Positions 2,711 through 37,683 of a DNA stretch of 41,334 nucleotides are shown here, one piece after another (positions within the stretch are counted from its first letter, which is position 1; each line of letters opens with the position of its first letter). Where the stretch lies: positions 1 to 41,334 of the forward strand of contig WLRQ01000019.1 of the NCBI GenBank assembly GCA_009697815.1. The letters are read 5' to 3'. Position numbers and translations under genes: made by a program. The notes below the pieces were generated by a model. The model did no database searches and was not told the origin of the DNA. It was given only the letters and a program-made list of their open reading frames with translations. This DNA is from Actinomycetota bacterium (lineage in GTDB: Bacteria > Actinomycetota > Actinomycetes > S36-B12 > CAIYMF01).

Positions 2711-2770
2711 GGGCCAAGAATCCCATACCCCACCCCGTCCGACGAAACCGACCATGGACGCGTTTCCCCG

Positions 2771-6227: not shown

Positions 6228-6228
6228 G

Positions 6229-14323: not shown

Positions 14324-14352
14324 TTGAAATTCTCCCGACCGTTCGGTAGACA
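14324..14352 (+). promoter_or_regulatory. Promoter with embedded TetR-type operator, site B (aldehyde dehydrogenase operon)
   Basis: A -35 TTGAAA (14324-14329) and a -10 TAGACA (14347-14352) are separated by exactly 17 bp. The operator CCGACCGTTCGGTAG (14335-14349) fills the spacer and overlaps the -10, so a bound repressor would block RNA polymerase. The same layout recurs at 19761-19789. It lies between the crotonase and aldehyde dehydrogenase genes, which are divergent, and may also affect the former. Confidence 0.75.
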
Positions 14353-14391
14353 TGCCCCCAAGTAACCATGAGCTCCCGAAGGGACATCTCC

Positions 14392-16773: not shown

Positions 16774-17538
16774 ATGTCAGAACGAAGTGACCTCCACGGC
16801 TCCGTCGCGATCGTGACGGGTGCCAGCCGCGGCATCGGCCTGGCGATCGCGACCGAACTACTCGGTCGCGGAGCGAAGGTGTGCATCACCGCGCGCAAGG
16901 CCGGCCCTCTCGCGGATGCCGCCCGGGCCCTCGGGTCACCTGATTCGGTTATCTCCGTGGCCGGCAACACCGATAGCTCCGAGCACCGAGGCGAGTGCGT
17001 CGAGGCCACCATGGCCGCGTTCGGCCGGATCGACCTGCTGGTGAACAATTCCGGGACCAACCCCACCTATGGCCCCATGATCGAGACCAGCCCCGCTGCC
17101 AGCAGCAAGGTGTTCGACGTCAATGTCACCAGTGCGCTCGAGTGGGTCAAGCTCGTGCACGCCACCTGGATGGGCGAACATGGCGGCTCGATCGTCAATA
17201 TCTCCTCAGCCGCAGGTATCAGGCCCGCCCTGGGCATCGGTATCTACGGAGCCAGCAAGGCGGCACTGTCGCAACTGACGGCGCAACTGGCCTGGGAGCT
17301 CGCGCCGGGCATCCGCGTCAACGCTGTGGCCCCCGCGGTCGTGCAGACCGTGTTCGCCGAAGCCCTCTATGTCGGCCGGGAAAGCACTGTGGCCTCGGCC
17401 TACCCTCTCGGTCGACTCGGGACCCCGCAGGACATCGCATCTGCCGTGGCCTTCCTGCTCTCCTCAGAAGCATCGTGGATCACCGGGCAGACCCTGGTGA
17501 TCGACGGTGGGCTCGGCCTGACCGGCGGCATCGAATGA
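16774..17538 (+). CDS. SDR family oxidoreductase
   Basis: A 254-residue classical SDR. The cofactor motif is TGASRGIG (about residues 13-20), the NNSG strand is LLVNNSGTNP, and the catalytic residues are Ser in NISSAAG and Tyr/Lys in YGASK. The C-terminus ends with the usual TLVIDGGLGLTGG. The Arg in TARKAG after beta-2 suggests NADP preference, in contrast to the preceding SDR. ATG 16774 has AGGA seven bases upstream. Its stop overlaps the next start as ATGA, so the kinase-like gene is translationally coupled. Two SDRs of apparently different cofactor preference in one operon suggest two separate alcohol/ketone steps. Substrate not assignable. Confidence 0.88.
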   Translation: MSERSDLHGSVAIVTGASRGIGLAIATELLGRGAKVCITARKAGPLADAARALGSPDSVISVAGNTDSSEHRGECVEATMAAFGRIDLLVNNSGTNPTYGPMIETSPAASSKVFDVNVTSALEWVKLVHATWMGEHGGSIVNISSAAGIRPALGIGIYGASKAALSQLTAQLAWELAPGIRVNAVAPAVVQTVFAEALYVGRESTVASAYPLGRLGTPQDIASAVAFLLSSEASWITGQTLVIDGGLGLTGGIE

Positions 17539-18569
17539 CCTCCTCCCCTCCGGGGCTCGATCTCGCAGCCCTGCGCGAATTCCTCGACGCGAACGCCCCG
17601 AGCCTCGTGTCCGGTGCGCTGCACGCCGAGGTAATCGCGGGCGGTCGCTCCAACCTGACCTACTTCCTCGACGACGGCTCCGAGCAATGGGTGCTGCGGC
17701 GTCCACCGCTCGGGCATGTCATGGCCACGGCGCACAATATGGCCCGCGAGTATCGCGTGATGGCCGCAATGGCGGGCACCACGGTGCCCTGTCCCGAGGT
17801 CCTGCTGATGTGCGATGACCCCGATGTCATCGGTGCACCCTTCTACATCATGGAGCGGGTAGACGGGGAGGTCATCCGTACGACCGACCAGTCCGCTGCC
17901 CTCGGGGTCAGCGGAACCGCCCGGCTCTCGAAGAACTTGGTGGATGTTCTCGCCTCCCTGCACTTGATAGATCCCGCGTCGATCGGGCTCGCCGACTTCG
18001 GCAGGCCTGGAGGCTTCATGTCCCGCCAGGTCGCGCGATGGGGTCAACAACTGGAATCCTCACGCACTCGCGAGATCCCCGGCATCGAGTCGCTCGGCCA
18101 CACGCTGGCCCGCGAAGTCCCACTGCCGCAACGGGTCTCGGTCGTGCACGGTGACTACCGACTCGAGAACGTCCTGGCCACTCCAGAGGCCGAGATCTCC
18201 GCGGTACTCGACTGGGAGATGGCCACCCTTGGCGACCCGCTCGCCGACCTCGGACTCATGTGCGTCTATTGGGATGCTCTGCCCGCCTTGGGCCTCAACC
18301 CTGTCGTCGAAGGGATCGCGCCGGGCCTGGGTTACCTCCGAAGCGATCAGCTCGTCGAGCGTTACCTCGCGGCAACCGGGCTCCACGATCGAGACATGCC
18401 TTGGTACGTCGCCTTCAGTTCCTACAAACTCGCGGTGATCCTCGAGGGCATCCACTACCGGTACGGGCTCGGACTCACCGTCGGTGAGCGTTTCGAGGAG
18501 ATCGGTCCTCTCGTCGCTCCGCTTATCGAGTACGGGGCCGACCAGATGCTCAGGAGTTCGCACCGGTGA
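17535..18569 (+). CDS. APH-family phosphotransferase (ACAD10/11-like kinase)
   Basis: A 344-residue protein-kinase-like phosphotransferase. The Brenner-type catalytic loop is VVHGDYRLENVL (about residues 204-215), and the metal site VLDWEMATLGDPLADLG follows. The N-terminal lobe keeps the nucleotide-binding ITYF-type strand (SNLTYFL) and LRRPP. This subfamily commonly neighbours, or is fused to, acyl-CoA dehydrogenases (ACAD10/ACAD11), where it is proposed to phosphorylate 4-hydroxyacyl-CoAs before dehydration. Here it overlaps the upstream SDR and the downstream acyl-CoA dehydrogenase by 4 bp each, matching that pairing. A role in hydroxyacyl-CoA metabolism is therefore far likelier than aminoglycoside resistance. 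Confidence 0.88.
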   Translation: MTSSPPGLDLAALREFLDANAPSLVSGALHAEVIAGGRSNLTYFLDDGSEQWVLRRPPLGHVMATAHNMAREYRVMAAMAGTTVPCPEVLLMCDDPDVIGAPFYIMERVDGEVIRTTDQSAALGVSGTARLSKNLVDVLASLHLIDPASIGLADFGRPGGFMSRQVARWGQQLESSRTREIPGIESLGHTLAREVPLPQRVSVVHGDYRLENVLATPEAEISAVLDWEMATLGDPLADLGLMCVYWDALPALGLNPVVEGIAPGLGYLRSDQLVERYLAATGLHDRDMPWYVAFSSYKLAVILEGIHYRYGLGLTVGERFEEIGPLVAPLIEYGADQMLRSSHR

Positions 18570-19717
18570 GCAATCCCCGGCCGATCTACCTTGAGGAGCA
18601 CGAGGCGTTTCGCGCCAGCGTCCGACACTTCGTGGAGAAGTCGATCTTGCCGCACTACGAGCACTTCACCGAGGAGCGCATGATCGATCGATCGGTCTGG
18701 CTCGAGGCTGGCTCTCTCGGACTTCTTGGCCTGCACGTTCCCGAGGAATACGGCGGTCAGGACGCGGGCGACTACCGGTTCACCGCGATCGTCCACGAGG
18801 AGCTCGCGAAGGTCAGTGTCGGGATGTCCTCGAGCTTCGGCATCCACTTCGACACGGTGGCGCCCTATCTCATCGAGCTCGGCACCCCCGAGCAGAAGGC
18901 ACGCTGGCTCCCGGGATTCGCCGACGGCTCGAAGATCACTGCAATTGCCATGACCGAACCCGGCGGGGGCAGCGACCTCGGCGCCCTGCGCACCACGGCC
19001 ACCGAGACTTCCGAGGGCTGGGTTCTCAACGGCAGCAAGACTTTCATCACCAACGGCTACCGGGCCGACCTCACCGTGGTGGCAGCCCGCACCGGCACCG
19101 GCAAGGCATCGAGGAGTATCTCGCTGTTCGCGGTCGAGGACGGTATGGCGGGCTTCACCCGCGGCCGCAAGCTCGACAAGGTCGGGCAGCCCGAGTGCGA
19201 TACGGCCGAGTTGTTCTTCACCGATCTCGAACTTCCGCGCACGAGCCTGATCGGCGAACTCGGCCGGGGGTTCATCCACATGATGGAGCGTCTGCCGCAG
19301 GAGCGGCTTTTCGGCGCGATCACCAACCTCGCGCACGCCGCGGACATCCTCCTCGAGACCATCGAGTACGCCAAGGAGCGCAAGGCATTCGGGCAGGCAA
19401 TCGGCAGTTTCCAGCACAATCGGTTTCTGCTTGCCGAACTCGTCACGACCGTCGACGTCGCTCAGGCCTTCCTCGACCAGTGCATCCTCGCCCACGTCAA
19501 CGGTGCACTCACACCCGTCCAGGCGGCCAAGGCGAAGTGGTGGACCGCGCAGGTCCAGAACGACGTTCTCGACGCGTGCGTTCAGATGTACGGCGGATAC
19601 GGCTACATGCGCGAGTACCGCGTCGCGCGGGCGTGGATGGACGCACGCGTGACGAAGATCTGGGCTGGCTCCAACGAGATCATGAAGGAACTCATCGGCC
19701 GGGATCTGGGCCTGTGA
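18566..19717 (+). CDS. Acyl-CoA dehydrogenase, LCAD-like
   Basis: A 383-residue FAD-dependent acyl-CoA dehydrogenase that introduces an alpha-beta double bond and passes electrons to ETF. The FAD/substrate block is AIAMTEPGGGSDLGALRT (about residues 126-143). The glutamate that ends in YEGT in medium-chain enzymes is replaced (KIWAGSNEIMKELI). Instead LPQERLF carries Glu246, at the place used as base by long-chain and isovaleryl enzymes. The C-terminal EIMKELI also matches LCAD. GTG 18566 overlaps the kinase stop (GTGA). It is the last gene of the unit; the kinase-like partner suggests joint action on hydroxylated or branched acyl-CoAs. Confidence 0.92.
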   Translation: MSNPRPIYLEEHEAFRASVRHFVEKSILPHYEHFTEERMIDRSVWLEAGSLGLLGLHVPEEYGGQDAGDYRFTAIVHEELAKVSVGMSSSFGIHFDTVAPYLIELGTPEQKARWLPGFADGSKITAIAMTEPGGGSDLGALRTTATETSEGWVLNGSKTFITNGYRADLTVVAARTGTGKASRSISLFAVEDGMAGFTRGRKLDKVGQPECDTAELFFTDLELPRTSLIGELGRGFIHMMERLPQERLFGAITNLAHAADILLETIEYAKERKAFGQAIGSFQHNRFLLAELVTTVDVAQAFLDQCILAHVNGALTPVQAAKAKWWTAQVQNDVLDACVQMYGGYGYMREYRVARAWMDARVTKIWAGSNEIMKELIGRDLGL

Positions 19718-19760: not shown

Positions 19761-19789
19761 TTGACAGGGTACCGACCGGACGGTAGAAA
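19761..19789 (+). promoter_or_regulatory. Promoter with embedded TetR-type operator, site C (mutase operon)
   Basis: A consensus -35 TTGACA (19761-19766) and a -10 TAGAAA (19784-19789) are spaced by 17 bp. The operator CCGACCGGACGGTAG (19772-19786) lies in the spacer and overlaps the -10. Extended by one base each side it reads as the dyad TACCG-ACCGGA-CGGTA with one central asymmetry. The predicted transcript starts about 40 bases before the GlmS-like ATG. The operon it drives encodes a TetR protein, so autoregulation is likely. Confidence 0.8.
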
Positions 19790-19834: not shown

Positions 19835-20281
19835 ATGACCGAGTCCTTGCAGGGCGCACGGGTCGTCATCGGATCCATCGGCGACGACATCCACGTGGTG
19901 GGCATCACCATCCTCGGGCATGCGTTGCGCAACGCCGGAGCCGAGGTGATCCAGCTCGGCATCCAGACCCCGGTCGAGGAGTTCGTCGCGACCGCGGTCG
20001 CCGAGGATGCCGACGCGGTGTTCGTGTCCTCGTCCAACGGGCACGCCGCGATCTTCTGCGACGGGGTGCGCGGCCTCATGGCAGCGGCAGGAGCCGACGA
20101 CGTACTGCTCTATGTCGGCGGAAACCTCGCGAACACGGCAGCCGCCGACTGGAGCGAGGTCGAGGCACGTTTCCTGGCGATGGGCTTCGATCGCGCCTAC
20201 CCCTCACGCACACAACCGGCCCAGGCCATCAGCGACCTTGTGGCCGACCTCGCCCAACGAAGGAGTGCGAGCAATGGCTGA
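19835..20281 (+). CDS. B12-binding small subunit of a glutamate-mutase-like enzyme
   Basis: A 148-residue Rossmann-like cobalamin-binding protein, homologous along its whole length to the GlmS/MutS sigma subunit of glutamate mutase. The base-off B12 motif DxHxxG is DIHVVG, whose histidine ligates cobalt. The further family elements are SSSNGHAA (the Ser contacting the dimethylbenzimidazole tail) and YVGGN. The C-terminal AMGFDRAYPSRTQP block also matches GlmS. It overlaps the large subunit by 8 bp. Together they would carry out an adenosylcobalamin radical carbon-skeleton rearrangement. It is called -like because the large-subunit active site and the neighbours argue against glutamate as substrate. 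The ATG has only a weak AGG upstream. Confidence 0.9.
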   Translation: MTESLQGARVVIGSIGDDIHVVGITILGHALRNAGAEVIQLGIQTPVEEFVATAVAEDADAVFVSSSNGHAAIFCDGVRGLMAAAGADDVLLYVGGNLANTAAADWSEVEARFLAMGFDRAYPSRTQPAQAISDLVADLAQRRSASNG

Positions 20282-21743
20282 CAACGTCACCAATGAGCGA
20301 CTGACCGACGACGCGTTCCACGCCCAGCGCGAGACGATCTTCCGTGAGCAGCTCGGGCGCGCTCCTTACGACCTCGATGAGGCCCTCGCGTTCTCGCTCG
20401 AGAACGCCAAGCGCGGCACCGTCGCGGCCGTGCTCCAGAAGGCCAAGGCCACCGGCGTCGCCGCCGTCGTTCCCAGGGCCGGTGTGGCGAGCTGGGAGGG
20501 CCAGCGCGCCCTCATGCAGATGCTCGACGAAGCCGGGGCGGCCTACCTTCCGATCACCATCGACAGTCTCACGCGCGAGCTTCAATTCGCCGAGGCCGAG
20601 CGTCGTCTGGCCTCGAGCACCACCGAGGTCTCGGCTCTCAACGGCTATCCGATCGTGGCCCACGGTATCGAGGCCAACCGCCGCCTCATTCAAAGTTTCG
20701 ATAAGCCGGTGATCGTGCGAGCGAACGCGGTCGACCTGCGCATCACGGCCGAGACGGGGCTCGCCAGTGGTGGTACCGCGTTCGTGTCCGGACCGATGTA
20801 TGCCACCCTCGAGTACTCCAAGAACACACCGCTGTCCGAGGGCATCTCCAAGTGGCAGTACATCTTCCGGCTGATGGGTATCTACTCCGAGGCCGGCGTG
20901 CCGATGGCCGATGACGCCGTCGGGTTCTCCCAGAGCGGCACGTGCTCGGTGCCCGCACTGATGCATGTTGGCGTCATCCTCGATGCGTTGATCATGGCCT
21001 CGCAGGGTGTGAAGCACATCATGTTGTATTCCATGCTTCAGGGAAATATCGCCCAGGATGTGGCGAGCTGCCTGGCTGTTGAGCAGCTTGCGACCGAGTA
21101 CCTCCACAAGCTCGGCCTCGACGATGTCTCCACCTACGTCGCGAGCAGCGACTGGAACGGCGCGTTCCCCGAGCGTCGCCCCGACGCCTACGGACTCATT
21201 GCGGCCAACGTATTCGCGGCCGCAATCGCGCGAGCACCCCTGAACTACGTCAAGACGATCGACGAGGGAATCGGCGTCCCCACCGCAGAGTCCAACGCCG
21301 ACAGCATCCGGGTCACTCGCTATCTGATGAACCTCATCGGCCGCCAGGCCCACGCTTGGCGCACCCCGGAGATCGAGTTCGAACTCCATCTCAACCTCAT
21401 CCAGGCCCGCGCCATTCTCGACGCGATCATCGATCTCGGTGATGGCGACCCCGTCGTCGGCTCCATCAAGGGGATCGGCACCGGCATCCTCGATATCCCG
21501 TTCTCGCCGAACATCCACGTGAAGGGGAACGTGCTGCCCATCCGGGATGCCTCGGGCGCGGTGCGGTTCCTCGACCACGGCGCCCTGCCCATTCCAGCGG
21601 AGGCACTCGAGATGGAACGCGAGCGACTCTCACACCGCTCGGCCGACCCGAGCGCACTGGGCTACCAAGATGTCGTCGATGACCTCCAGTTCCTCGAGCT
21701 CGACACCTTCGACCCGGCCACCGGTACGGAGGTGAAGGCGTAG
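20274..21743 (+). CDS. Large subunit of a glutamate-mutase-like (methylaspartate mutase E) enzyme
   Basis: A 489-residue TIM-barrel subunit, homologous to GlmE/MutE (about 483 residues). By alignment from memory with Clostridium cochlearium GlmE, the three substrate-carboxylate arginines are kept: Arg68 (VPRAGV), Arg101 (IDSLTRE) and Arg149 (VIVRANAVD). The cofactor-ribose residues Lys327 and Glu331 (VKTIDEGIGVPT) are also kept. The segment that holds Glu171 in GlmE (NEGGGISYNVPY) is here AFVSGPMYATLEY with no equivalent acid, and the His after Arg149 is Ala. Glu171 handles the substrate amino group, so a dicarboxylate lacking the amine is inferred. ATG 20274 has AAGGAG eight bases upstream. 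No methylaspartase or MutL gene is in the window. Confidence 0.9.
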   Translation: MADNVTNERLTDDAFHAQRETIFREQLGRAPYDLDEALAFSLENAKRGTVAAVLQKAKATGVAAVVPRAGVASWEGQRALMQMLDEAGAAYLPITIDSLTRELQFAEAERRLASSTTEVSALNGYPIVAHGIEANRRLIQSFDKPVIVRANAVDLRITAETGLASGGTAFVSGPMYATLEYSKNTPLSEGISKWQYIFRLMGIYSEAGVPMADDAVGFSQSGTCSVPALMHVGVILDALIMASQGVKHIMLYSMLQGNIAQDVASCLAVEQLATEYLHKLGLDDVSTYVASSDWNGAFPERRPDAYGLIAANVFAAAIARAPLNYVKTIDEGIGVPTAESNADSIRVTRYLMNLIGRQAHAWRTPEIEFELHLNLIQARAILDAIIDLGDGDPVVGSIKGIGTGILDIPFSPNIHVKGNVLPIRDASGAVRFLDHGALPIPAEALEMERERLSHRSADPSALGYQDVVDDLQFLELDTFDPATGTEVKA

Positions 21744-22528
21744 TGCCCGATCTCAAGGTCTGGAACACCTCGATCACCGAGATCGCCGACAGTTCGATCT
21801 CCTACCGCGGCCTTCCGATCGGGCCGCTGATCGAGAACGGTGAGCTCTCCTCGATGCTGTGGCTGCTGCTCTTCGGCGGCGATCCCACGCCCGGGCAGAG
21901 CGACGCACTGCGACGCGCGATCATCGCGGCCCTTGACCACGGGGTCACCGCACCCTCGACACTCGCCGCGCGGGCGACGGCCTCGACTCGCAGCCCCGTG
22001 CCCTTCGCGATCGCCTCAGGTCTGATCGCTTTCGGCGGACCGGCTCACGGCGGAGCCGCCGAGGAGGCCGCGTACATCTTCCGCACTATCGCCGACGGCA
22101 ATCCGGCCGATCTGGCCGAGGCCGCGATGTCGGCCATGGCCGACCTCCTCGCGGCCCGCAAGCGGATGCCGGGGTACGGGCACCCCTACCACGCGCGCGA
22201 CCCCCGGGTGGGTCCGCTGATGTCGGGTATCGAGGCCAGTCACACCTACCGCGACATCGCCACCGCGTGTGAGAGCGCCCTGCTCACATTGACGGGAAAG
22301 CCCCTGCACATGAACGCCGACGCGGCCGTCGCGGGGCTCCTGCTCGATGCAGGCCTCGGCCCTGCCGACATCACCCTTGTCACCTGCCTCGGGCGGGCCT
22401 TCGGCCTCGCAGCCCACAGTCGCGAGGAGCAGGCCAACGAGCGCCCGTTCCGCGCGCCGTCCCTCGACACCGTGTCTTACTCCCGATCCGCCTCGCCCGA
22501 CTCCAGAACGGAACAGCCCACCGCATGA
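21743..22528 (+). CDS. Citryl-CoA lyase-like protein (citrate-synthase fold)
   Basis: A 261-residue protein of the citrate synthase superfamily, of the short type seen in citryl-CoA lyase and the C-terminal part of ATP-citrate lyase. Catalytic candidates: His102 (GGPAHGGAAEEA), His147 (PGYGHPYHARDPR) and Asp193 (HMNADAAVAGLLL). It should cleave, or form, a 3-hydroxy-3-carboxyacyl-CoA to give an acyl-CoA and an oxoacid. GTG 21743 overlaps the mutase stop (TAGTG), and the gene overlaps the ligase beta gene as ATGA, so it is tightly coupled to both. The last 30 residues are a polar tail. Its position between a mutase and a CoA ligase suggests it cleaves the activated mutase product. Citrate itself is not excluded. 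Confidence 0.83.
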   Translation: MPDLKVWNTSITEIADSSISYRGLPIGPLIENGELSSMLWLLLFGGDPTPGQSDALRRAIIAALDHGVTAPSTLAARATASTRSPVPFAIASGLIAFGGPAHGGAAEEAAYIFRTIADGNPADLAEAAMSAMADLLAARKRMPGYGHPYHARDPRVGPLMSGIEASHTYRDIATACESALLTLTGKPLHMNADAAVAGLLLDAGLGPADITLVTCLGRAFGLAAHSREEQANERPFRAPSLDTVSYSRSASPDSRTEQPTA

Positions 22529-23727
22529 CCCGCCTGCTCGAGCACGTAGTCAAGGACATCCTCGAGTCCGAGGGTGTGCTCGTCCCTGCACGCCGGCTCT
22601 GTTCGAGCGCCGAGGAGGCCGTCGCCGCGTTCGAGGAACTCGGTGGCCCCATGTACCTCAAGGCACAGGTGGCCGCGGGCGACCGAGCCGGCAGCGGTGG
22701 CATCACGCGCGTCACGGACTCCGACTCGATGCGGAAAGCCGCCAACGCCATGCTCGGCATCTCGATCCAAGGCCTGCCTGTGCACTCGGTTCTCGCCGAG
22801 TGTGCGGTCGTGGCCCCCTGGGAGGGCTATGCCGCGATCTCGGTAGAAGAGAACCCCGCGAGGCGCGTCCTGCGCTTCTCCCCCACCGGCGGCACCGGAT
22901 TCGATCCAAGTCGCGCCGCGCTCGCCATGGATCTCGATGACGCGCTCGCACCCCACCGCGTGCGGCGGGAGCTTCGACGCATCGGCACGCCATCCTCGGA
23001 GCTGGTCGCGATCTCGACCTTCCTGCACAAGCTCGCGCTCATCGCGACCCGCTGGGCCGCCTACACGTTAGAGCTCAACCCCATCACTCTCACCGACGAC
23101 GGCATCGTCGCCCTCGACGCCAAAGCCGACCTCGACGACTACTCCAAGCCGCTCATCCCCGATCCCTCGGTGCTCGATGAAGAGGATCGCAATGCCCGCG
23201 AGCGCGCGGCCCGCGAGTTCCAGGCCGGCGATCACCGCGGCAGCCTGCGCTATGTGCAGCTCATCCCCGACGACGCGCCCGCAGGGCCCACGATGGTGGC
23301 CTCCCACTCGGTCGGCGGTGGTGAGTCGATGGTCGTCCTCGACGCACTCGCAGCAGTCGGCCTGCTACCCACGAACTACTGCGACACCTCGGGTTCACCC
23401 TCGGCGAAGAAGGTCTCGGTCGCGGCCGAGATAGTTGCCGGCCAGCCCAATATCGCCGGCATGCTGTTCTCCACGTGCATCGCCAACCAACCACTCTCCG
23501 TCACCGCCACCGGCCTGCTCGACGGCTGGCGCAATGTCGGGTGGACCGGGCCCACCGTGGTGCGCTTTGCTGGCAACGAGTCAGAGCAGGCCCGCGAGAT
23601 GGTTCGTGCATGGGCACTCGAGACAGGTGCGCCCACAGTCATCGTCGGCGAGGAGTCGAACGAGTGGGAGGCCGCGGCACATCTCGCTCGAATGCTCGGC
23701 GTCACCACGGAAGGAGCAGCGAGATGA
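22525..23727 (+). CDS. SucC-like ATP-grasp CoA ligase beta subunit
   Basis: A 400-residue homologue of the succinyl-CoA synthetase beta subunit, comparable to citryl-CoA synthetase and malate-CoA ligase beta chains. The ATP-grasp region starts at MYLKAQVAAGDRAGSGGITRV, about residues 45-65, replacing the usual KAQVHAGGRGKAGG. The metal/nucleotide segment LELNPITLTDDGIVALDAKADLD (in two parts, about residues 180-205) is canonical. The C-terminal CoA-ligase-like domain follows. It pairs with the downstream alpha gene through a 4-bp overlap. The divergent glycine loop and the context suggest an acid other than succinate. It would make the CoA ester that the adjacent lyase cleaves, or run in reverse. 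Confidence 0.87.
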   Translation: MTRLLEHVVKDILESEGVLVPARRLCSSAEEAVAAFEELGGPMYLKAQVAAGDRAGSGGITRVTDSDSMRKAANAMLGISIQGLPVHSVLAECAVVAPWEGYAAISVEENPARRVLRFSPTGGTGFDPSRAALAMDLDDALAPHRVRRELRRIGTPSSELVAISTFLHKLALIATRWAAYTLELNPITLTDDGIVALDAKADLDDYSKPLIPDPSVLDEEDRNARERAAREFQAGDHRGSLRYVQLIPDDAPAGPTMVASHSVGGGESMVVLDALAAVGLLPTNYCDTSGSPSAKKVSVAAEIVAGQPNIAGMLFSTCIANQPLSVTATGLLDGWRNVGWTGPTVVRFAGNESEQAREMVRAWALETGAPTVIVGEESNEWEAAAHLARMLGVTTEGAAR

Positions 23728-24593
23728 GCTTCCTGGTCAACGCCGATACCCGAGTCGTCATCCAGGGGATCACAGGCCAGCTCGGTGTGTTCGTCACTCG
23801 CATGATGGACGACCACGATCTCGCACCCGTCGCCGGCGTCACCCCAGGCCGCGGCGGCGAACGGGTCGGCAGCGTTCCGGTGTTCGACACCATTGAGGAA
23901 GCCGCACGCGAGGCCGGAGCCAACGCCTCGCTCGTCCTGGTTCCGGCCCACGGGCTCCGTGACGCTGTTCTCGAGGCCATCGAGGGCGGCATGAGCCCCA
24001 CGGTGCTCATGGTCGATGGTGTTCCACTCGGGCTGAGCGAAGAACTCCTGCGCGCCGCACGGGCCGCGGGCATCGTCATCATCGGCCCGAACAGCCCAGG
24101 CCTGATCTCCCCCGGGCAGTGCCTGCTGGGCGCACTGCACCCGGCAAAGTTCTCGGCCGGCGATATCGCCGTGATCTCTCGCAGCGGCGGCATGATGTCG
24201 ACCATCGCGCACACCCTGTCCGTGGCCGGGATGGGCACCTCGACCTGCCTGGGCATCGGCGGCGACAGCGTGATCGGGCTCGACATGGCCCAAGCGGCGC
24301 TCCTGGCCCAGAACGATGACGACAGCCGGGCCATCGTCATATTCGGCGAGATCGGCACCAGCCAGGAGGAGCGCCTCGCCGACCTCGTGAAGTCCGGTGC
24401 CGTGACCAAGCCCGTTGTCGCCTACATCGCAGGTGCAGCGGCACCTGCGGGTATCCGCTACTCCCACGCCGGCGCGAAGGTCGACGGTGTCGAGGGCTCG
24501 GCGCAGTCCAAGAAGCGGGCACTCGCCGACGGCGGGGTTCATGTGGTCGATCGCTACATCGATATCCCTGCGGTCCTGAACGACGCGATGTAG
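23724..24593 (+). CDS. SucD-like CoA ligase alpha subunit
   Basis: A 289-residue homologue of succinyl-CoA synthetase alpha. The CoA-binding Rossmann start is VVIQGITGQLGVF (about residues 11-23). The family blocks GVTPGRGGERVG, IIGPNSPGLISPG, VISRSGGMMST and IFGEIGTSQEE are present. The phosphorylated histidine is His248 in SHAGA, where GHAGA is usual. ATG 23724 has GGAAGGAG upstream and overlaps the beta stop as ATGA. With the beta chain and the lyase it resembles the two-step ATP-citrate cleavage set of Hydrogenobacter (citryl-CoA synthetase plus citryl-CoA lyase), but next to a B12 mutase. The acid substrate is inferred to be the mutase product. Confidence 0.88.
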   Translation: MSFLVNADTRVVIQGITGQLGVFVTRMMDDHDLAPVAGVTPGRGGERVGSVPVFDTIEEAAREAGANASLVLVPAHGLRDAVLEAIEGGMSPTVLMVDGVPLGLSEELLRAARAAGIVIIGPNSPGLISPGQCLLGALHPAKFSAGDIAVISRSGGMMSTIAHTLSVAGMGTSTCLGIGGDSVIGLDMAQAALLAQNDDDSRAIVIFGEIGTSQEERLADLVKSGAVTKPVVAYIAGAAAPAGIRYSHAGAKVDGVEGSAQSKKRALADGGVHVVDRYIDIPAVLNDAM

Positions 24594-24604
24594 AGGAGGT
24601 ACTC

Positions 24605-25237
24605 ATGTCGAGTGAATCCGTGGCGCCCACACCCGAGCCCCGAAAGAGCGATGCCGCCGAGCGGAGACGCGCCGAAATTCTCGAGCAGTCCGCGAGGCTG
24701 TTCGACAGGTCCGGCTACAACAAGACGTCGATGAACGACATCGCCGAGGCGGTGGGGGTTCGCAAGCCAACGCTCTACCATTACTTCGACACCAAGGACG
24801 AGATCCTCTACTGGCTCCACGAGGAGTTCATCAACACCCTCCTGACCCAACAGGAGGCGCGCATCGCCGAGCGGGTTCCCGCCGACCTCATGGTCTTCGA
24901 GATCATGGCCGACATCCTGGCACTCATGCAGACGCACAAGGGCCACGTGCGCACCTACTTTGAGAACCACCGCGAGCTGCCCGAGCGCCATCGCACGACC
25001 AGCCACGAGAAGCGCGATCGTTACCGCCGCATGCTTGAGGACGCCATCGCGCAGGGAACCAAGGAAGGCACCTTCCGGCACGTCGATCCCGGGCTAACGG
25101 CGCTCGCCATCTTCGGGATGGTCAACTGGGCCTACCAGTGGTACGAGATTGATGGCACGCGAAGCCCCCGGGACATCGCCACTGTGTTTGCCGATCTTGT
25201 CCTGAACGGCCTCACCGCGAGCCCGCCTCGGGCCTGA
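24605..25237 (+). CDS. TetR-family transcriptional regulator
   Basis: A 210-residue TetR repressor. The N-terminal helix-turn-helix is at about residues 23-66 (SARLFDRSGYNKTSMNDIAE then VRKPTLYHYFDTKDEI). The C-terminal ligand domain includes a KstR2-like block (FGMVNWAYQWYEIDG) and ends FADLVLNGL, as in actinobacterial regulators of sterol and acyl-CoA catabolism that often sense CoA esters. It has a strong AGGAGG ribosome site and sits 11 bp after the ligase alpha gene, inside the mutase operon. It is the only regulator gene in the window and the best candidate to bind the four CCGACCGNNYGGTAG sites, including the one that drives its own operon. That link is inference. Confidence 0.92.
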   Translation: MSSESVAPTPEPRKSDAAERRRAEILEQSARLFDRSGYNKTSMNDIAEAVGVRKPTLYHYFDTKDEILYWLHEEFINTLLTQQEARIAERVPADLMVFEIMADILALMQTHKGHVRTYFENHRELPERHRTTSHEKRDRYRRMLEDAIAQGTKEGTFRHVDPGLTALAIFGMVNWAYQWYEIDGTRSPRDIATVFADLVLNGLTASPPRA

Positions 25238-25241
25238 ACCG

Positions 25242-26195
25242 ATGACCCCTTACGCCACCGAGTTGGCGGCCGGAATCCGTCGCGGGCATCCGCGGTCGGT
25301 CGCCCGCGCGATCAGCCTGGTGGAGCGACGAGATCCCTCAGTCGATCTGATCATCCGCCAGATCGGCGGCGCCACCCTGCCCGCGCACGTAGTAGGCATC
25401 ACCGGGGCGCCCGGCGCTGGGAAGTCGACCACCGTGTCGGCATTGACCAGCGCCTTCCGCGAGATCGGTTGGCGCGTCGGCGTTCTCGCCGTCGACCCCT
25501 CCTCGCCCTTCACCGGTGGCGCGCTCCTGGGGGATCGGATTCGCATGCGCGACCATGCACTTGACCCCGAGGTGTTCATCAGGTCAATGGCCTCACAAGG
25601 ACACCTCGGCGGGCTGTCCGCCGCAGTGCCACAGGCCCTGCGGATCCTCGAGGGCGCCGGGTGTCGGGTGGTGCTGATCGAAACGGTCGGGGTCGGCCAG
25701 TCCGAGGTCGAGGTGTCGGGTGTCGCTGACACGACCGTGGTCGTTCTCACTCCCGGGATGGGCGACGGTATCCAGGCCTCGAAGGCAGGGGTCCTGGAGA
25801 TCGGTGACATCTTCGCCGTGAACAAGTCCGATGTCGATGGCGCAAGTACGACGGTGCGCGACATCCAGCGCATGATCGCTCTCGACCCGACCGTCGCCGC
25901 GGCCACGTGGCGACGGCCCGTCGTGCGCACGCGAGCCGACACCGGCGACACCGGCTCCCTAGTCCAGGCCCTCACCGATCGGTGGGAATGGCTGCAGACA
26001 TATGACGCACTCACCATCAAGCGTGTCGCGCGCACCGCGCTCGAGCTCGAGGCCCGCGTTCTCGATTCCGTCAGGGAAGACCTGCGCGCAGTCGATGGCG
26101 AGCATGCGCTCGATGCCCTTGCGGCGGCCGTCACCCGTGGTGAACTCGATCCGGCAGCGGCCGCATCGCTTCTGCGGCAACGACTCTCAGGCTAG
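25242..26195 (+). CDS. meaB: MeaB/ArgK-family GTPase, B12-mutase chaperone
   Basis: A 317-residue G3E-family GTPase of the MeaB type, which gates loading of adenosylcobalamin onto acyl-CoA mutases and protects or reactivates them. The P-loop is GAPGAGKST (about residues 53-61), the switch region ETVGVGQSEVEVSGVADT, and the base-specificity motif NKSD. The C-terminal dimerisation arm is present. Length is normal. It starts 4 bp after the tetR stop, as the last gene of the mutase operon. MeaB normally accompanies methylmalonyl-CoA mutase, but no such gene is here. Its partner is presumably the GlmS/GlmE-like mutase, which usually relies on MutL instead. Its stop shares CTAG with the convergent FadB-like gene. 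Confidence 0.9.
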   Translation: MTPYATELAAGIRRGHPRSVARAISLVERRDPSVDLIIRQIGGATLPAHVVGITGAPGAGKSTTVSALTSAFREIGWRVGVLAVDPSSPFTGGALLGDRIRMRDHALDPEVFIRSMASQGHLGGLSAAVPQALRILEGAGCRVVLIETVGVGQSEVEVSGVADTTVVVLTPGMGDGIQASKAGVLEIGDIFAVNKSDVDGASTTVRDIQRMIALDPTVAAATWRRPVVRTRADTGDTGSLVQALTDRWEWLQTYDALTIKRVARTALELEARVLDSVREDLRAVDGEHALDALAAAVTRGELDPAAAASLLRQRLSG

Positions 26196-28300
26196 ACCGA
26201 AGCAACGCCGACCGGCAGGAATCGTCGACCAGAGGCGCGTTCGGAGGCACCGATCCGATCGAGGTAAGGGGTCAGCCCGCCGTTGGACATCGGCCAACCC
26301 ACTCCGAGCAGCATGCAGAGGTCGATATCCTGCGGCTCAGCGACGACGCCCTCGCTGAGCATGATCGCCGCCTCGTCGGCGAGGGCATCCGCGACACGGT
26401 CGCGCACCTGCTCGGCCGTGAGTCGGGTGTCGCCCATCTCGTAGAGGGCCCGCACATCGGGGTCGATCACACGCCCACCCTCGGGGCTCCGGGCCCAGAA
26501 GGCGGTAGCACCGCTCTCGACCACTCGCCTCATATTCTCCGAGCCGTAGAAGCGGTCGGGGAAGGCATCGACCATGGTCTGCGCGCTGTGGAACGCCACC
26601 GGTGGCCCGACGAGCGCGAGCAACTCGAAGGCCCCCATCGGCACCCCCATGAGGTGTGCCGCGCGATCGGCAACCTCGAATTCGGTGCCCTCGTCAACGA
26701 CCCGCCACAACTCACACAGGAAGCGGACCAACAGGCGGTTGACGACGAAGCAGGGCGCGTCCTGGACGAGCACACATGTCTTGCCGAGCCCTTTGCCCGC
26801 GGCGAAGGCCGTCGCCGTTGTCGCGGGGTCGGTGAGGGCCGTCGGGGCGATCTCGAGCAGTGCCATCACCGCGACCGGGTTGAAGAAGTGGAATCCGATG
26901 ACCCGCTCGGGATGCCGCAGGTCCTTGGCCATGTCGCTCACCGACAAAGACGAGGTATTGGTTGCCAGCACGCAGGTATCGGACACGACAGCCTCCGCGG
27001 CCGCGAACACCGCCTTCTTGACCTCAAGATCCTCGAACACGGCCTCGATGACGAAGTCTGCGTCGGCAAGCACGCTCTGCTCGTGTGAGGCGCTGACGAG
27101 CGTGCGTATGAGTGTGGCCTCGCCCTGGCCCATGCGACCCTTGGCCACGAGGGTGGAGATCTGCTCGAGAACATTGCGCAAGCCGGCCTCTGCGCGGTCG
27201 GCCGAGAGATCGGTCATGACCACGGGCACCTTGAGGGTGCGTGCGAAGAGCACGCACAACTGGCTGGCCATGAGGCCCGCTCCGATGATGCCCACCTTGG
27301 TGATCGGCCGTGCGAGTGCAGGATCCGGCGCCCCGGAGGGCCGCTTGGCCCGCTTGGTCAGCAGTTCGAAGGAGTACACCGAGGCCCGGAAGTCCTGGCC
27401 GAATGCCAATGCGGCCAGGGCCTCGTTCTCGGCAGTGAAGCCCTCCTCGCGGGTGCGGGTCTGGGCTGCGGCGATGAGGTCGCACGCGACGTAGGGCGCG
27501 GGGGTAGCGCCTTTGACCTTGGCGTCGACGGCCTTGCGCACGGCATCGACCTCGCTCTGCCAGGTGTCCGACGCGGGCACGGATCGAGGAACCTCGATTG
27601 CTCCGGTGACAACCTGAGCGGCCCACAGGCACGACTGCTCGAGGAACTCGGCGCCGTCGAGCATGATGTCGGCGATGCCCAGATCCACAGTGTCGGAGGG
27701 CCGAAGTCGCTTATTGGACGCCAACGGGTTGGCCACGATTACCGAGAGTGCGCGGGCGGGCCCGATCAAGTGCGGCAGGAGGTAGGTGCCGCCCCACCCT
27801 GGGATGAGCCCGAGATACACCTCGGGCAATGACAGCGCAGCCGCGGCCGATGACACCGTGCGGTAGGTGCAGTGCAACGAGAGCTCGAGGCCACCGCCCA
27901 TGGCGGGGCCATTGAGGAATGCGAAGGTCGGCACCGCCATGTCGCTCAGACGCGAGAAGACGCGATGGCCCAAGGCCCCAAAATCCTTGGCGCCCTGACG
28001 ATCGGCGACCCCGGTGATCTGTCCGAGGTCAGCTCCAACACAGAAGGCCTCAGCCGTGCCGACCAACGCCACCGCCGCGATGTTGCGTTCGGCGCTCACG
28101 AGCTCAAGGGCTGCATCGAGGGATGCCAGGCCGAGTGGGCCAAAGGTCGAGGGCCTCCCGGCCACCTCATTATCAAGAGTGATCAGGCCCAGCCGTCCCG
28201 CGCTCAACGGCAGATCGATGAACTCGACCTTCGACAGCGTGGCAACCTCGCTCTGGCTCTTCGACACTGCGTTCACCGTCACCGTTCTCCGAGCGTGCAC
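26192..28300 (-). CDS. FadB-like enoyl-CoA hydratase / 3-hydroxyacyl-CoA dehydrogenase fusion
   Basis: A 702-residue two-function beta-oxidation enzyme. Residues of about 30-260 are a crotonase domain with oxyanion blocks AFCVGADLGQI and FLNGPAMGGGLELS. From about residue 325 the 3-hydroxyacyl-CoA dehydrogenase NAD domain begins with VGIIGAGLMASQLCVLFA, where the usual GxGxMG is altered to GAGLMAS. The catalytic-region histidine is in VIGFHFFNPV, and two C-terminal helical domains follow. It would hydrate an enoyl-CoA and oxidise the product with NAD+. GTG 28300 opens the longest frame; a GTG eight codons later (28276) has GGAGA about nine bases upstream and may be the true start. It ends convergently with meaB. 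HyuB lies upstream on the same strand beyond a stable hairpin. Confidence 0.9.
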   Translation of the reverse strand: MHARRTVTVNAVSKSQSEVATLSKVEFIDLPLSAGRLGLITLDNEVAGRPSTFGPLGLASLDAALELVSAERNIAAVALVGTAEAFCVGADLGQITGVADRQGAKDFGALGHRVFSRLSDMAVPTFAFLNGPAMGGGLELSLHCTYRTVSSAAAALSLPEVYLGLIPGWGGTYLLPHLIGPARALSVIVANPLASNKRLRPSDTVDLGIADIMLDGAEFLEQSCLWAAQVVTGAIEVPRSVPASDTWQSEVDAVRKAVDAKVKGATPAPYVACDLIAAAQTRTREEGFTAENEALAALAFGQDFRASVYSFELLTKRAKRPSGAPDPALARPITKVGIIGAGLMASQLCVLFARTLKVPVVMTDLSADRAEAGLRNVLEQISTLVAKGRMGQGEATLIRTLVSASHEQSVLADADFVIEAVFEDLEVKKAVFAAAEAVVSDTCVLATNTSSLSVSDMAKDLRHPERVIGFHFFNPVAVMALLEIAPTALTDPATTATAFAAGKGLGKTCVLVQDAPCFVVNRLLVRFLCELWRVVDEGTEFEVADRAAHLMGVPMGAFELLALVGPPVAFHSAQTMVDAFPDRFYGSENMRRVVESGATAFWARSPEGGRVIDPDVRALYEMGDTRLTAEQVRDRVADALADEAAIMLSEGVVAEPQDIDLCMLLGVGWPMSNGGLTPYLDRIGASERASGRRFLPVGVASV

Positions 28301-28429: not shown

Positions 28430-30628
28430 TTACTCGCTGGCGTCGAGGTAGGGGTCGAGGATGCCGAGCCGCGGGGCTGCGCAGAGATCGCGCCCGGCCA
28501 GCGTGATGTCGACCGAGAGGGCCGTGGCACATCCGGGGCAGAAGTTCTCGCGCATGACGACGGGGGCGAGGTCGCCCGTGGGCCGGATCTGCGCGTGAAT
28601 CTCCTCGAACCGCTCCGTGACCTTGCTCTCGCGGGTCACCACGGCGGTGCGCCAGTTGCCCACCTGCGGGCCAAGATCGTGCTGGCACATGGCGCATTTC
28701 CAGTTGCCCTCGGCCACCGCGAGCGGTGCGAACACCGGGCCAGCCGGGTCCGGGGTGCGGGCGGGAGCAGCTCCGAGGCGTTCCTGTCGGATCCGGGTGC
28801 GGGCGGCCAGGGTCGCCGCGACATCGGTGGCCTGGTTGGCATCGAGCACCACGCCATAGAGGAGCTCGCCGACGTCGGCGCTGACGTAGCCGTCACGGAT
28901 GTCCTTGGCCACGGAGTCGGGGTCGCGGAAGAGCGGGTCGCCCACTCCGCCGCCACCACCATTGATCACGCTGAACACATCACCGCGACGCAGGATGAGG
29001 TCACCGGTCTTCGCCGGCTGCGGCACCTTGCGGCCCTTGAGGACATCCTCAGTGGGCCAGATGCCCTGCTCGAGGAGCTCGAAGACATTGGTGTCGGTGA
29101 GCAGGGTCCACTCGCCAGCGCCGGAGGGGTAGCCACCGGATGCGCCTCGGGCCGGGATGTAGGCGGCGTTGTTGTAGCCGCCACCGGTCATGAACTCACT
29201 GTGGACGATCGCGAGGGCGCCGCTGACTCCCATGCCACCGCGGTGGGTTCCCGCACCGGCCTGATCGCGAGAGATGCGACGCCAGAGGATGTAGCCGGGC
29301 TGGCTGGTCTCCTCCATCTCGACATCGGGGGTGTTGCAGCCACACATGCACTGCGCGGCGTAGGTGTCGAGACCGTCCGTGACGGTCTGCGCCCCACCAC
29401 CACACGGCTGCCCCAGCGAGACCGGGAAGGCGACGGTGGGCCACCCGGTGCGCAGGTCGACACCGAAGGAGGTGAAGAAGGCGAGGTTCTGACACGGTGC
29501 GCCCGCGACGCGACTGGCGACAACGGGGTCCGTGCTCAGCGCGCAGGCCTGGGAGAGCACCTCGATGAGGATCTTGTTGATCCTCATGCCGGTTTCCATG
29601 TGGGACTGGGTCACCGGGGAGGGCGGTAGTGAGTTGACGATGCTGCCCTTGGGCCCGAGATCGAACACGATCGGGCGCCATAGGCCCTGGTTGACCGGGA
29701 TGTCGTAGCACAGCTGGGAGAGCAGGGTCGACCACGACTGTCCGACCACCGCGGGCCAGGCTCCGTTGATGAAGGAGTCGGTCTGCTTATCACCGCGGTA
29801 CTGGATGGTCATCTGGTCGCCGTCGACGACGAGGCGGCATCGGACGTTGAAGAATTCCAGCGGCCCGCGTCCGTCGTATTCGACCCAGTCCTCGCTCTCG
29901 TAGGTGCCATCGGGGAGGCCGCTGATGCGGTTGCGCATCGCCTTCTCCGAGAGGTCCTTGGCCGCCTCGTTGAGTTCGGTGAATCGCTCGAAGCCGATGT
30001 CGTCGAGCATCGACTGGATCCTGCGCTCACCGGCGCTGTTCGCGGCGATCATGCTGCGGATGTCGTTGAGGACGATCCGCTCGAGGCGAACGTTGTTACC
30101 GATGAACGATTCCCATTCGGGTTCGATCTGGTAGTTGCGGATCACGCGGACCGCGTTGAAGTTCAGCGTCTCGGAGTACTTGTCGTGGGCCGCCGGCGCG
30201 AAGCCGGAGACCGCCGAGCCGCCCGCGTCCAGGACGTGCTCGTTGACATAGCCGAACGCGACGATCTCGCCGTTGTGGAAGAACGGCATCACCACCCCGA
30301 GGTCGCCCTGGTGGATCGCACCCGAGGTGTGGGGGTCATTACACAGGAACCCGTCGCCCGGGCGGAGGTCCTCCATCGCATGCCCACGCAGGACCGCCTT
30401 CACCCCGCCGATGGCGGTGGAGATGTGGAAGGTCACGAAGCCGGCGAAGGCCAGCTGCTCGACATTGCGGTCCAGGATGCAGGTGCTGAAGTCGAGGGCC
30501 TCGGTCACCACGGGTGATCCGGAGGTGCGCATCAGCGTGATGGCCATCTCATTGGCCATATTGCGGATCGACTTGCTGTGAACCTCGATATCGATGATGT
30601 CGAGGGTTGCTTCGGTGCCGGCGCTCAC
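28430..30628 (-). CDS. HyuB / acetone-carboxylase-alpha-like subunit with fused gamma-like zinc domain
   Basis: A 732-residue protein. Residues 1 to about 620 are the hydantoinase B/oxoprolinase/acetone carboxylase alpha family, beginning with the family block IRNMANEMAITLMRTSGSP. Family features such as LRPGDGFLCNDPHTSGAIHQ and the Gly-rich GGGGGVGDP are present. Residues of about 642-732 are extra. They hold CAMC (Cys645/648) and FCPGC (Cys697/700) in a layout like the small zinc-containing gamma subunit of acetone carboxylase. The fusion favours ATP-dependent carboxylation of a ketone over hydantoin hydrolysis, although neither is proven. GTG 30628 has AAAGGA eight bases upstream. It follows the HyuA-like gene by 16 bp as its partner subunit. 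Confidence 0.86.
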   Translation of the reverse strand: MSAGTEATLDIIDIEVHSKSIRNMANEMAITLMRTSGSPVVTEALDFSTCILDRNVEQLAFAGFVTFHISTAIGGVKAVLRGHAMEDLRPGDGFLCNDPHTSGAIHQGDLGVVMPFFHNGEIVAFGYVNEHVLDAGGSAVSGFAPAAHDKYSETLNFNAVRVIRNYQIEPEWESFIGNNVRLERIVLNDIRSMIAANSAGERRIQSMLDDIGFERFTELNEAAKDLSEKAMRNRISGLPDGTYESEDWVEYDGRGPLEFFNVRCRLVVDGDQMTIQYRGDKQTDSFINGAWPAVVGQSWSTLLSQLCYDIPVNQGLWRPIVFDLGPKGSIVNSLPPSPVTQSHMETGMRINKILIEVLSQACALSTDPVVASRVAGAPCQNLAFFTSFGVDLRTGWPTVAFPVSLGQPCGGGAQTVTDGLDTYAAQCMCGCNTPDVEMEETSQPGYILWRRISRDQAGAGTHRGGMGVSGALAIVHSEFMTGGGYNNAAYIPARGASGGYPSGAGEWTLLTDTNVFELLEQGIWPTEDVLKGRKVPQPAKTGDLILRRGDVFSVINGGGGGVGDPLFRDPDSVAKDIRDGYVSADVGELLYGVVLDANQATDVAATLAARTRIRQERLGAAPARTPDPAGPVFAPLAVAEGNWKCAMCQHDLGPQVGNWRTAVVTRESKVTERFEEIHAQIRPTGDLAPVVMRENFCPGCATALSVDITLAGRDLCAAPRLGILDPYLDASE

Positions 30629-32863: not shown

Positions 32864-32987
32864 ACTGCGGCCCTAGCCTGCCCCCTCGAGCACTTGGACG
32901 CCAGCCGCGTCGGACGGCTGGCAATTCGCCTTGATCGCGCCGCTGCGTTCCCTGGCCTCGGGGACAGTCACACGCAGCAGGAATCTG

Positions 32988-33005
32988 CCGACCGATCGGT
33001 AGAAT
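32988..33005 (+). promoter_or_regulatory. TetR-type operator, site D, upstream of an SDR gene
   Basis: CCGACCGATCGGTAG at 32988-33002 contains the perfect 12-bp dyad GACCGATCGGTA short of its ends (core ACCGATCGGT, 32991-33000). The trailing TAG continues as TAGAAT (33000-33005), a fair -10. A -35 at the right distance is not recognisable. It points toward the SDR at 33164, 160 bp downstream, and sits in the gap shared with the divergent HyuA-like gene. Confidence 0.7.
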
Positions 33006-33922: not shown

Positions 33923-33970
33923 GAGGTGCGACGAGCGATCCCTGATCCGTCGAGAAGTGGGAAGGCAACG

Positions 33971-37635: not shown

Positions 37636-37683
37636 CAATCCTCCTCACGCAGTCTCGGCTCGGTGCCGAGGACGCAAGGCACC

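Follow-up and report, generated by a model that had tools for sequence, protein, structure and literature searches.

What does a homologue of glutamate mutase do when the genes that follow it encode a CoA-ester lyase and a CoA ligase? The question is posed by a contig of an Actinomycetota bacterium (WLRQ01000019.1, assembly GCA_009697815.1), of which the whole analysed stretch (41,334 nucleotides) is referred to here as the window. An earlier account drawn from the letters alone (the sequence-only reading) described seven closely packed genes at 19835–26195; open reading frames (ORFs), gene junctions and family matches bear this out for all seven. The parts belong to known families and make up a plausible new pathway: the operon probably carries out a degradation route not yet described. 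The reading that we favor, tentatively and at slightly less than even chances, is that of a catabolic module around a neofunctionalised glutamate-mutase homologue, which would turn a 2-hydroxyglutarate-type acid into one of the 3-methylmalate type, to be cleaved to propionyl-CoA and a 2-oxoacid.

All seven genes lie on the forward strand. The first (19835–20281) encodes a GlmS-like B12-binding subunit (PF02310, PRK02261; match to the sigma subunit of glutamate mutase at 4.5e-30) that retains DIHVVG, a sequence of the pattern DxHxxG, which we take to be the cobalt-ligand motif. It overlaps by eight bases the gene for a GlmE-like TIM-barrel subunit (20274–21743; PF06368, 1.8e-111, 373.2 bits), whose stop codon shares one base with the GTG start codon of a short (261 residues), citryl-CoA-lyase-like protein of the citrate-synthase fold (21743–22528). 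Overlaps of four bases join the lyase gene to that of a SucC-like ligase subunit (22525–23727; ATP-grasp_2), and the latter to that of a SucD-like subunit (23724–24593; Ligase_CoA); junctions within this five-gene unit are thus overlaps of 1 to 8 bases. A TetR-family regulator (24605–25237, by family matches) and a MeaB-family GTPase (25242–26195; TIGR00750), likely a cobalamin chaperone, complete the series. MeaB scores above its family cut-off (289.8 vs 240.75 bits) and GlmS above that of PRK02261 (152.5 vs 110 bits). Both mutase subunits miss their equivalog cut-offs (GlmE 332.5 of 390.1 bits for TIGR01503; GlmS 133.7 of 135.8 bits for TIGR01501), and the lyase (150.1 of 261 bits with the best model), SucC (134.1 of 370) and SucD (268.6 of 336) fall below those of NCBIfam.

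Conservation singles out the first five genes. The unit glmS-glmE-lyase-sucC-sucD is found in a single order in at least five genomes of three actinobacterial lineages: the window genome (G000), a Frankiales metagenome-assembled genome (G778, locus L091), Acrocarpospora catenulata H8750 (G779, locus L092), and G781 and G783, which are labelled Acrocarpospora-type because their GlmE is 93–94% identical to that of L092. Operon proteins of the other four carriers are 57–71% identical to those of the window, whose nearest operon relatives are Actinomycetota. Recurrence of the order in four further genomes indicates that the gene set is more than a chance association, and the shared order of mutase, lyase and ligase in all five is what would be expected of enzymes that catalyse consecutive steps, as the sequence-only reading had proposed. 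That reading had also treated all seven genes as one set, which holds for five: TetR and MeaB are local additions, found beside the unit in the window only, and the dehydrogenase genes that share its operator (see below) had been left out. Neither TetR nor MeaB has a match among the genes neighboring the unit in the other four carriers (the contig of G778, 15 kb long, begins just before glmS); relatives of MeaB occur away from the unit in G778 (55%) and G779 (53%).

The operon is rare, yet conserved where found, and no other genome searched was seen to carry it. Of the outcome that the sequence-only reading named as refuting it, an operon both rare and unconserved, the first half applies and the second does not. 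Besides the window genome, no GlmE-like gene was detected in 59 relatives (10 of the same genus, 6 of the same family, 43 of the same order); any GlmE match was confined to 18 of 393 other genomes sampled from the class (best 34% identity), and of 396 genomes sampled from the phylum 25 matched PF06368 (E 0.001), eight of them, the window genome included, over the cut-off. A scan of contigs that used an alignment as query and covered 84,980 species, one genome apiece, returned at least 592 stretches, 591 of which encode relatives (with a single protein as query no relative was confirmed). Among the matches listed the only close GlmE proteins are those of L091 (70%) and L092 (65%), the next being at 40%; in the other 78 loci of the best 80 of 591, which were those analysed, nothing matched the lyase or ligase genes. 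Within the order of L092 the gene is carried by 3 of 345 genomes (G779 itself, G781 and G783), and among 298 genomes sampled from the order of L091 by one, the L091 genome itself. One ORF filter missed GlmS of the L092 genome and the lyase of G778; both are present in the locus comparison. As operon carriers we rejected GlmE-like genes from other genomes of the phylum and from Roseibium, Mesorhizobium, Ensifer, Gemmobacter and Rhizobium plasmids, since none of 27 loci matched the lyase or ligase, 13 of these spanning only about 4 kb, so that more distant neighbors would escape; the comparison took in 17 of the 18 genomes of the class that gave a GlmE match, the weak match of G642 being the one left out. 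Searches of plasmid proteins gave no GlmE, ligase or lyase match at 60% identity or more.

What has changed in the mutase can be read from its pocket. The AlphaFold model of GlmE (pLDDT 88.8) superimposes on glutamate mutase epsilon (6h9e) with a TM score of 0.92. According to PMC9545868, R66 and R149 of glutamate mutase hold the migrating glycyl group and E171 binds its amine, R100 and Y177 contact acrylate, and Gly68 and Asn123 are adenosine contacts. These positions were compared in an alignment of 94 GlmE-like proteins (the window, 80 from the contig scan, 11 picked elsewhere, G781 and G783). The arginine claw for the two carboxylates (Arg68, Arg101 and Arg149 of the window, equivalent to R66, R100 and R149) is retained in all five operon members and nearly throughout the alignment (R100 in 94 of 94, R149 in 93, R66 in 90). 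Glu171, in contrast, is Val in all five operon members and Glu in 86 of the 89 other homologues (the remaining three have Ser, Thr and Asn). The five also share H150A, Y177A and P180E, at positions that are His in 85, Tyr in 87 and Pro in 85 of the others. Gly68 and Asn123 are retained in the operon members, as are Lys326 and Glu330, which we presume to be functional too. A quick tree groups the five operon GlmE proteins in a single clade (SH-aLRT 100) with a long stem; the branches next to it are long as well, and the deeper placement is unsure.

Because the claw arginines are kept and the amine-binding Glu171 is lost, the substrate is probably a dicarboxylate without an amine, in agreement with the sequence-only reading. 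The mutase would hold two carboxylates as for glutamate, with the grip on the amine gone. The absence of His150 and Tyr177 points to a roomier pocket around the migrating carbon, where methyl or a similar larger group should fit at least as well as hydrogen. Glutamate mutase GlmES of Clostridium cochlearium (PDB 1cb7, 6h9e) is alike in being a two-subunit adenosylcobalamin (AdoCbl) mutase and in fold, claw and adenosine-site residues; the window system differs by E171V, H150A, Y177A and P180E, by the adjoining MeaB, and by the genes of glutamate fermentation, of which the sequence-only reading saw none. Indeed, scans of the window ORFs, the short ones excepted, against Pfam or NCBIfam name no MutL, methylaspartase or mesaconase.

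The two enzymes that follow share features with those of citrate cleavage. The best solved-structure match of the SucC-like protein is succinyl-CoA synthetase (135.5 bits, citryl-CoA synthetase reaching 101), and in its substrate loop, TCIANQ, the residues IAN align with TAN of citryl-CoA synthetase (6hxq) rather than with the GGI type of SucC. The SucD-like subunit has an intact SHAGA motif, the His of which we take to be the phospho-histidine, and citryl-CoA synthetase is among the solved matches of both subunits. The lyase, for which PF00285 is the sole Pfam match, has the fold of citrate synthase and not of CitE; its best solved match is citryl-CoA lyase 6hxp (3.2e-27), and a structure model with a pLDDT of 44 was left unused. 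His102, His147, Arg155, Asp193, Arg218 and Arg237, presumably equivalent to H274, H320, R329, D375, R401 and R421 of citrate synthase (the last shifted by one residue), are retained in the five operon members. The first five are also present in three of three Alphaproteobacterial relatives; the sixth is Arg in one and Lys in two.

These similarities allow another reading, in which ligase and lyase resemble a split ATP-citrate lyase, taking citrate or 2-methylcitrate to acetyl- or propionyl-CoA and oxaloacetate, while the mutase serves a separate step of the same catabolic pathway on another dicarboxylate. Such a system (CcsAB plus citryl-CoA lyase) likewise combines a SucCD-type ligase having an AN-type loop with a short lyase of the citrate-synthase fold, and the ligase loop, the lyase residues (the R421 equivalent included) and the solved matches of both enzymes speak for it. 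However, the window proteins lie far under the NCBIfam citryl-CoA-lyase and SucC cut-offs, they are encoded together with a B12 mutase, and a single five-gene order in three lineages fits consecutive steps; we consider this reading unlikely. The route of malate-CoA ligase and malyl-CoA lyase differs in that its lyase has the CitE fold. Closer in lyase type are three Alphaproteobacterial modules (L175, L176 and L178) in which relatives of the lyase adjoin CaiB-type CoA transferases and importers. Here too CoA activation accompanies a PRK06224-type lyase, a CoA transferase replacing the ligase and no mutase standing among the annotated neighbors, which suggests that CoA activation followed by this type of lyase is a recurring arrangement.

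If the steps are consecutive, what chemistry would they share? In general terms the reaction of the mutase has to link HOOC-CH2-CH2-X with HOOC-CH(CH3)-X, X being a group that bears a carboxylate but lacks an amine. Should X be C(OH)(R)COOH, a ligase and a lyase can cleave the branched form and not the linear one, which makes the gene set coherent for R = H or CH3. In our favored scheme a short-chain dehydrogenase (SDR1) and an aldehyde dehydrogenase (ALDH) encoded upstream would oxidize a primary alcohol to the carboxylate, giving HOOC-CH2-CH2-C(OH)(R)-COOH. The AdoCbl mutase would then shift C(OH)(R)COOH by one carbon to give HOOC-CH(CH3)-C(OH)(R)-COOH, and so convert a gamma-hydroxy acid, for which retro-Claisen cleavage is not possible, into a cleavable beta-hydroxy acid. 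With ATP the SucCD-like ligase would form the CoA ester of this 3-methylmalate-type acid, to be split by the lyase into propionyl-CoA and glyoxylate (R = H) or pyruvate (R = CH3). MeaB may take the role of MutL in loading or repairing the cobalamin cofactor, and the operator promoters described below may be repressed by TetR. The example of the sequence-only reading, 2-hydroxyglutarate, is chemically consistent with this scheme; a bulkier R such as methyl, for which the pocket without His150 and Tyr177 would leave space, suits it no less.

A more specific version, possible but doubtful, is that of a new AdoCbl mutase of free acids that rearranges 2-hydroxy-2-methylglutarate to 2,3-dimethylmalate (moving the hydroxyl from gamma to beta), with CoA activation and cleavage to propionyl-CoA and pyruvate to follow. 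If so, Val171, Ala150 and Ala177 would leave space for a methyl at the ammonium site of glutamate mutase, and actinobacteria would degrade tertiary-alcohol (isoprenoid-type) ends after oxidation of a methyl by P450, SDR and ALDH. A still larger R, with C(OH)(COOH)CH2COOH as the migrating group, would make the enzyme a homocitrate/2-methylcitrate mutase yielding propionyl-CoA and oxaloacetate. The chemistry is that of the favored scheme, and both the widened pocket (H150A, E171V, Y177A) and the citrate-like ligase and lyase would suit it; yet none of the four changed pocket positions of GlmE gains a positive charge for a third carboxylate, and neither homocitrate synthase, methylcitrate synthase nor PrpD is present among the annotated cluster genes, so that we regard it as decidedly unlikely.

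Upstream sequences connect the unit to other genes. A palindromic 16-mer, TACCGACCGGACGGTA, a putative operator of the TetR type, lies at 19770–19785 within the glmS promoter (TTGACA-17-TAGAAA), and a sequence scan allowing up to three mismatches finds two more copies in the window: at 14333–14348, inside the promoter from which the ALDH operon would be transcribed (TTGAAA-17-TAGACA), and at 32986–33001, between a HyuA-like gene and a third SDR gene (SDR3), where no clear -35 element is seen. Six strand matches were obtained in the window, compared to 0.35 expected and a maximum of 2 in 100 shuffles. The exact form TACCGNNNNNNCGGTA has three sites in the genome, equal to its reversed control, so that the signal lies in the longer core, TNCCGACCGNNCGGTA: the three window sites are its sole exact matches in the genome, a count that is not independent as the core was derived from them. 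A looser pattern gave six window matches, three of which were discarded (22830, inside the SucC gene; 5961 and 6126, both within the predicted gene 5082–6293). G778 provides an independent check: it has TACCAACCGAACGGTA upstream of glmS and TACCAACCGAATGGTA upstream of ALDH, and its contig holds three matches against 0.10 expected (maximum 2 in 200 shuffles), the third, at 52–67, sitting farther upstream of glmS and being left unused.

All four glmS and ALDH sites of the window and G778 are placed between TTGACA or TTGAAA and TAGAAA or TAGACA at a spacing of 17 (TTGAMA-17-TAGAMA). These promoters were read by eye and counted afterwards, which makes their description post hoc; a sigma-70 scan had missed them, as its rule for the second hexamer requires T at position 6. 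The three Acrocarpospora-type genomes have a different palindrome, TGTATTCAAGATACA, just upstream of glmS in L092 and G783 (the two upstream regions read). TetR or GntR would be the candidate to bind these putative operators. Because an operator-promoter is common to glmS and the ALDH/SDR operon in both the window and G778, the ALDH and SDR genes are tied to the pathway: on this evidence we place ALDH and SDR1 with the five-gene set. The acyl-CoA dehydrogenase (ACAD) belongs there less surely.

The ALDH operon and the genes after it run up to the glmS promoter on the forward strand: ALDH (14368–15870), SDR1 (15937–16713), SDR2 (16774–17538, by family match), a kinase of the APH fold resembling the kinase domain of ACAD11 (17550–18569, start codon uncertain) and an LCAD-like ACAD (18566–19717). 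In G778 the unit has downstream of it orthologues of ALDH (59%, behind an operator of the same type) and then of SDR1 (62%), with genes for a class III aminotransferase and a hydratase beyond them. An island common to the three Acrocarpospora-type genomes comprises P450, ACAD, the five-gene unit, a branched-chain-type importer, an SDR, a luciferase-like monooxygenase, a SnoaL-like protein, a flavin reductase, MFS, GntR and an alcohol dehydrogenase (ADH)-like protein (families named on the L092 genome, ADH by similarity alone); its ACAD is 63% identical to that of the window and lies directly upstream of glmS in L092 and G783. The match of the APH-fold protein to the ACAD11 kinase domain (1.7e-46) ranks third after 9o56 and 3dxp. 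ACAD11 acts on 4-hydroxyacyl-CoAs (PMC11342911); 2-hydroxyglutarate-type acids are 4-hydroxy acids too. Kinase and ACAD were rejected as a full ACAD10/11 or LvaA/LvaC pair, since the dehydrogenase resembles LCAD and its 60 best solved matches do not include ACAD11; the kinase half stands.

With importer, P450, ALDH, SDR and ACAD the clusters look catabolic, which argues against operation in reverse, with propionyl-CoA and a 2-oxoacid being condensed, the ligase yielding ATP and the mutase making a linear 2-hydroxyglutarate-type acid for assimilation. Mutases, SucCD-type ligases and enzymes of the citrate-synthase fold can be reversible, and it is this general property that recommends the idea; we judge it very improbable.

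Beyond MeaB, on the reverse strand, are a FadB-like hydratase/dehydrogenase (26192–28300), a HyuB/CapB-like subunit of an ATP-dependent amidohydrolase or carboxylase (28430–30628) and its HyuA/CapA-like partner (30645–32735), divergent from the third operator, behind which SDR3 (33164–33922) and an enoyl-CoA hydratase family protein (33926–34675) lie on the forward strand, all by family match. The HyuAB-like and FadB-like genes may belong to the pathway, though no conservation ties them to it. The occurrence of hydratase-family genes close to the operon, in G778 as in the window, and a Val at the amine site that suits a methylene, would agree with a mutase of the 2-methyleneglutarate type, whose product, 3-methylitaconate, would pass through its CoA ester and a hydratase to 2,3-dimethylmalyl-CoA and on to propionyl-CoA and pyruvate, in parallel to itaconate degradation. 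The five-gene unit, however, contains no hydratase, and the window hydratases are unmatched in the three other islands: this route, too, is very unlikely. The end pathway of nicotinate fermentation runs from 2-methyleneglutarate to 2,3-dimethylmalate and then to propionate and pyruvate. It resembles the proposed route in that a B12 mutase acts on a C6 dicarboxylate that is then cleaved to a C3 acid and pyruvate; it differs in that its lyase uses the free acid and in that the enzymes are not the same. In the 2-hydroxyisobutyryl-CoA mutase pathway (PDB 4r3u) a B12 mutase also renders a hydroxyl-bearing skeleton degradable, but the substrate is a CoA ester and the mutase is of the MCM type.

The fate of the products bears on the choice between glyoxylate and pyruvate. 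Methylmalonyl-CoA mutase models match an ORF in the window genome, a sink for propionyl-CoA; an IcmF-type mutase appears to be split over the ends of two of its contigs (C12 and C108), likely by an assembly break. This genome (93% complete) has malate synthase on contig C21 and no detected isocitrate lyase, which weakly favors glyoxylate as product.

Several observations weigh against the favored reading. The R421 equivalent of the lyase might point to an oxoacid with two carboxylates (oxaloacetate) rather than glyoxylate or pyruvate; it discriminates poorly, because all three related lyases compared have Arg or Lys there. None of the annotated cluster genes encodes an apparent producer of 2-hydroxyglutarate. 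The glyoxylate argument is limited to the window genome, because in G778 neither malate synthase nor isocitrate lyase was detected and G779, G781 and G783 have both. With two mismatches the core TNCCGACCGNNCGGTA gives 44 and 47 genome matches compared to 49 and 67 for the reversed control, and with three mismatches 27 in the window compared to 22.0 by chance, which is no enrichment. Orthologues of ALDH and SDR1 were not found in the three Acrocarpospora-type islands, where P450, another SDR and ADH occur instead, and the ACAD beside glmS in G781 (L185/L186) lacks about residues 166–352 and is intact in both sister genomes. Finally, glutamate chemistry exists in at least one carrier, though not beside the operon: in G783 a contig other than that of the operon encodes a clear methylaspartase (319 bits), while a partial match in G778 narrowly exceeds the cut-off (29.5 vs 27 bits; PF07476 matches 11 of 14 control genomes, two of them over the cut-off).

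This last point, with family membership by hidden Markov model and fold, is what an ordinary glutamate mutase of the methylaspartate route would predict, its downstream genes being missing. Glu171, however, is lost in all five members and both TIGR equivalog cut-offs are missed, and a genome-wide search for PF07476 (MutL and mesaconase were not searched for in this way) gave only a sub-cut-off match in the window genome (22.3 vs 27 bits); we hold this explanation to be scarcely credible. Alphaproteobacterial GlmSE clusters, considered as similar modules, were rejected as methylaspartate routes. Those of Ensifer, Rhizobium and Gemmobacter (L030–L032) likewise follow GlmSE with CoA activation and a CoA-ester lyase, but they include methylaspartase, their lyase is annotated as a CoA ester lyase and not as a citryl-CoA lyase, and GlmE of L030 and L031 (the two checked) retains Glu171. 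All three clusters are plasmid-borne and comprise GlmSE, methylaspartase, a CaiB CoA transferase, a CoA-ester lyase and a fumarase-type gene; that of Gemmobacter adjoins histidine-degradation genes.

To our knowledge AdoCbl carbon-skeleton mutases of known reaction are few. Searches of open-licence PubMed Central found nothing joining glutamate mutase with citryl-CoA lyase, or methylaspartate mutase with citryl-CoA, and so turned up no described pathway with this set, as the sequence-only reading had supposed. If our reading is true, a glutamate-mutase fold with a replaced amine-binding residue, tied genetically to a ligase and a lyase, would stand for a new reaction, and for a new route by which branched or tertiary-hydroxy acids are metabolised. 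A compact module, clear residue changes and a carrier that is a named strain, Acrocarpospora catenulata H8750, make the idea directly testable.

Altered pockets occur in other GlmE-like proteins as well. At L107 (5910–11168) the changes are R66E and E171S, at L037 (1939–8463) R66Q, R149N and E171N, and at L097 (3479–9440), where an ACAD is also present, H150P with E171 retained. Each of the three has an MmgE/PrpD-family gene, GlmS and MutL alongside (MutL recognized by Pfam in L107 and by eye in L037 and L097, GlmS by eye in L107 and L097); these proteins may represent a further family of glutamate mutases put to a new use. A Betaproteobacterial GlmE-like protein at L146 (2871–11307) carries R66L, H150I, E171T and K326N, and its gene is near HyuA and HyuB matches, an AtuA-like gene and a MutL-like gene (the last by eye).

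Elsewhere in the window, a gene for a luciferase-like monooxygenase (36463–37638, reverse strand) has counterparts in the two other lineages (L184, 10110–11195; L189, 11086–12069), each of the three being no more than about 20 kb away from the operon, a recurrence that may be due to chance given the size of the family. An ORF with HMGL-like and PYC_OADA carboxyltransferase-type domains (38614–40092, reverse strand) adjoins an SDR gene and the luciferase-like gene. ORFs 428–1159 and 2219–3379 have no family match in Pfam or NCBIfam, and a P-type ATPase (7597–9948, reverse strand) carries a hemerythrin domain at its C-terminus.

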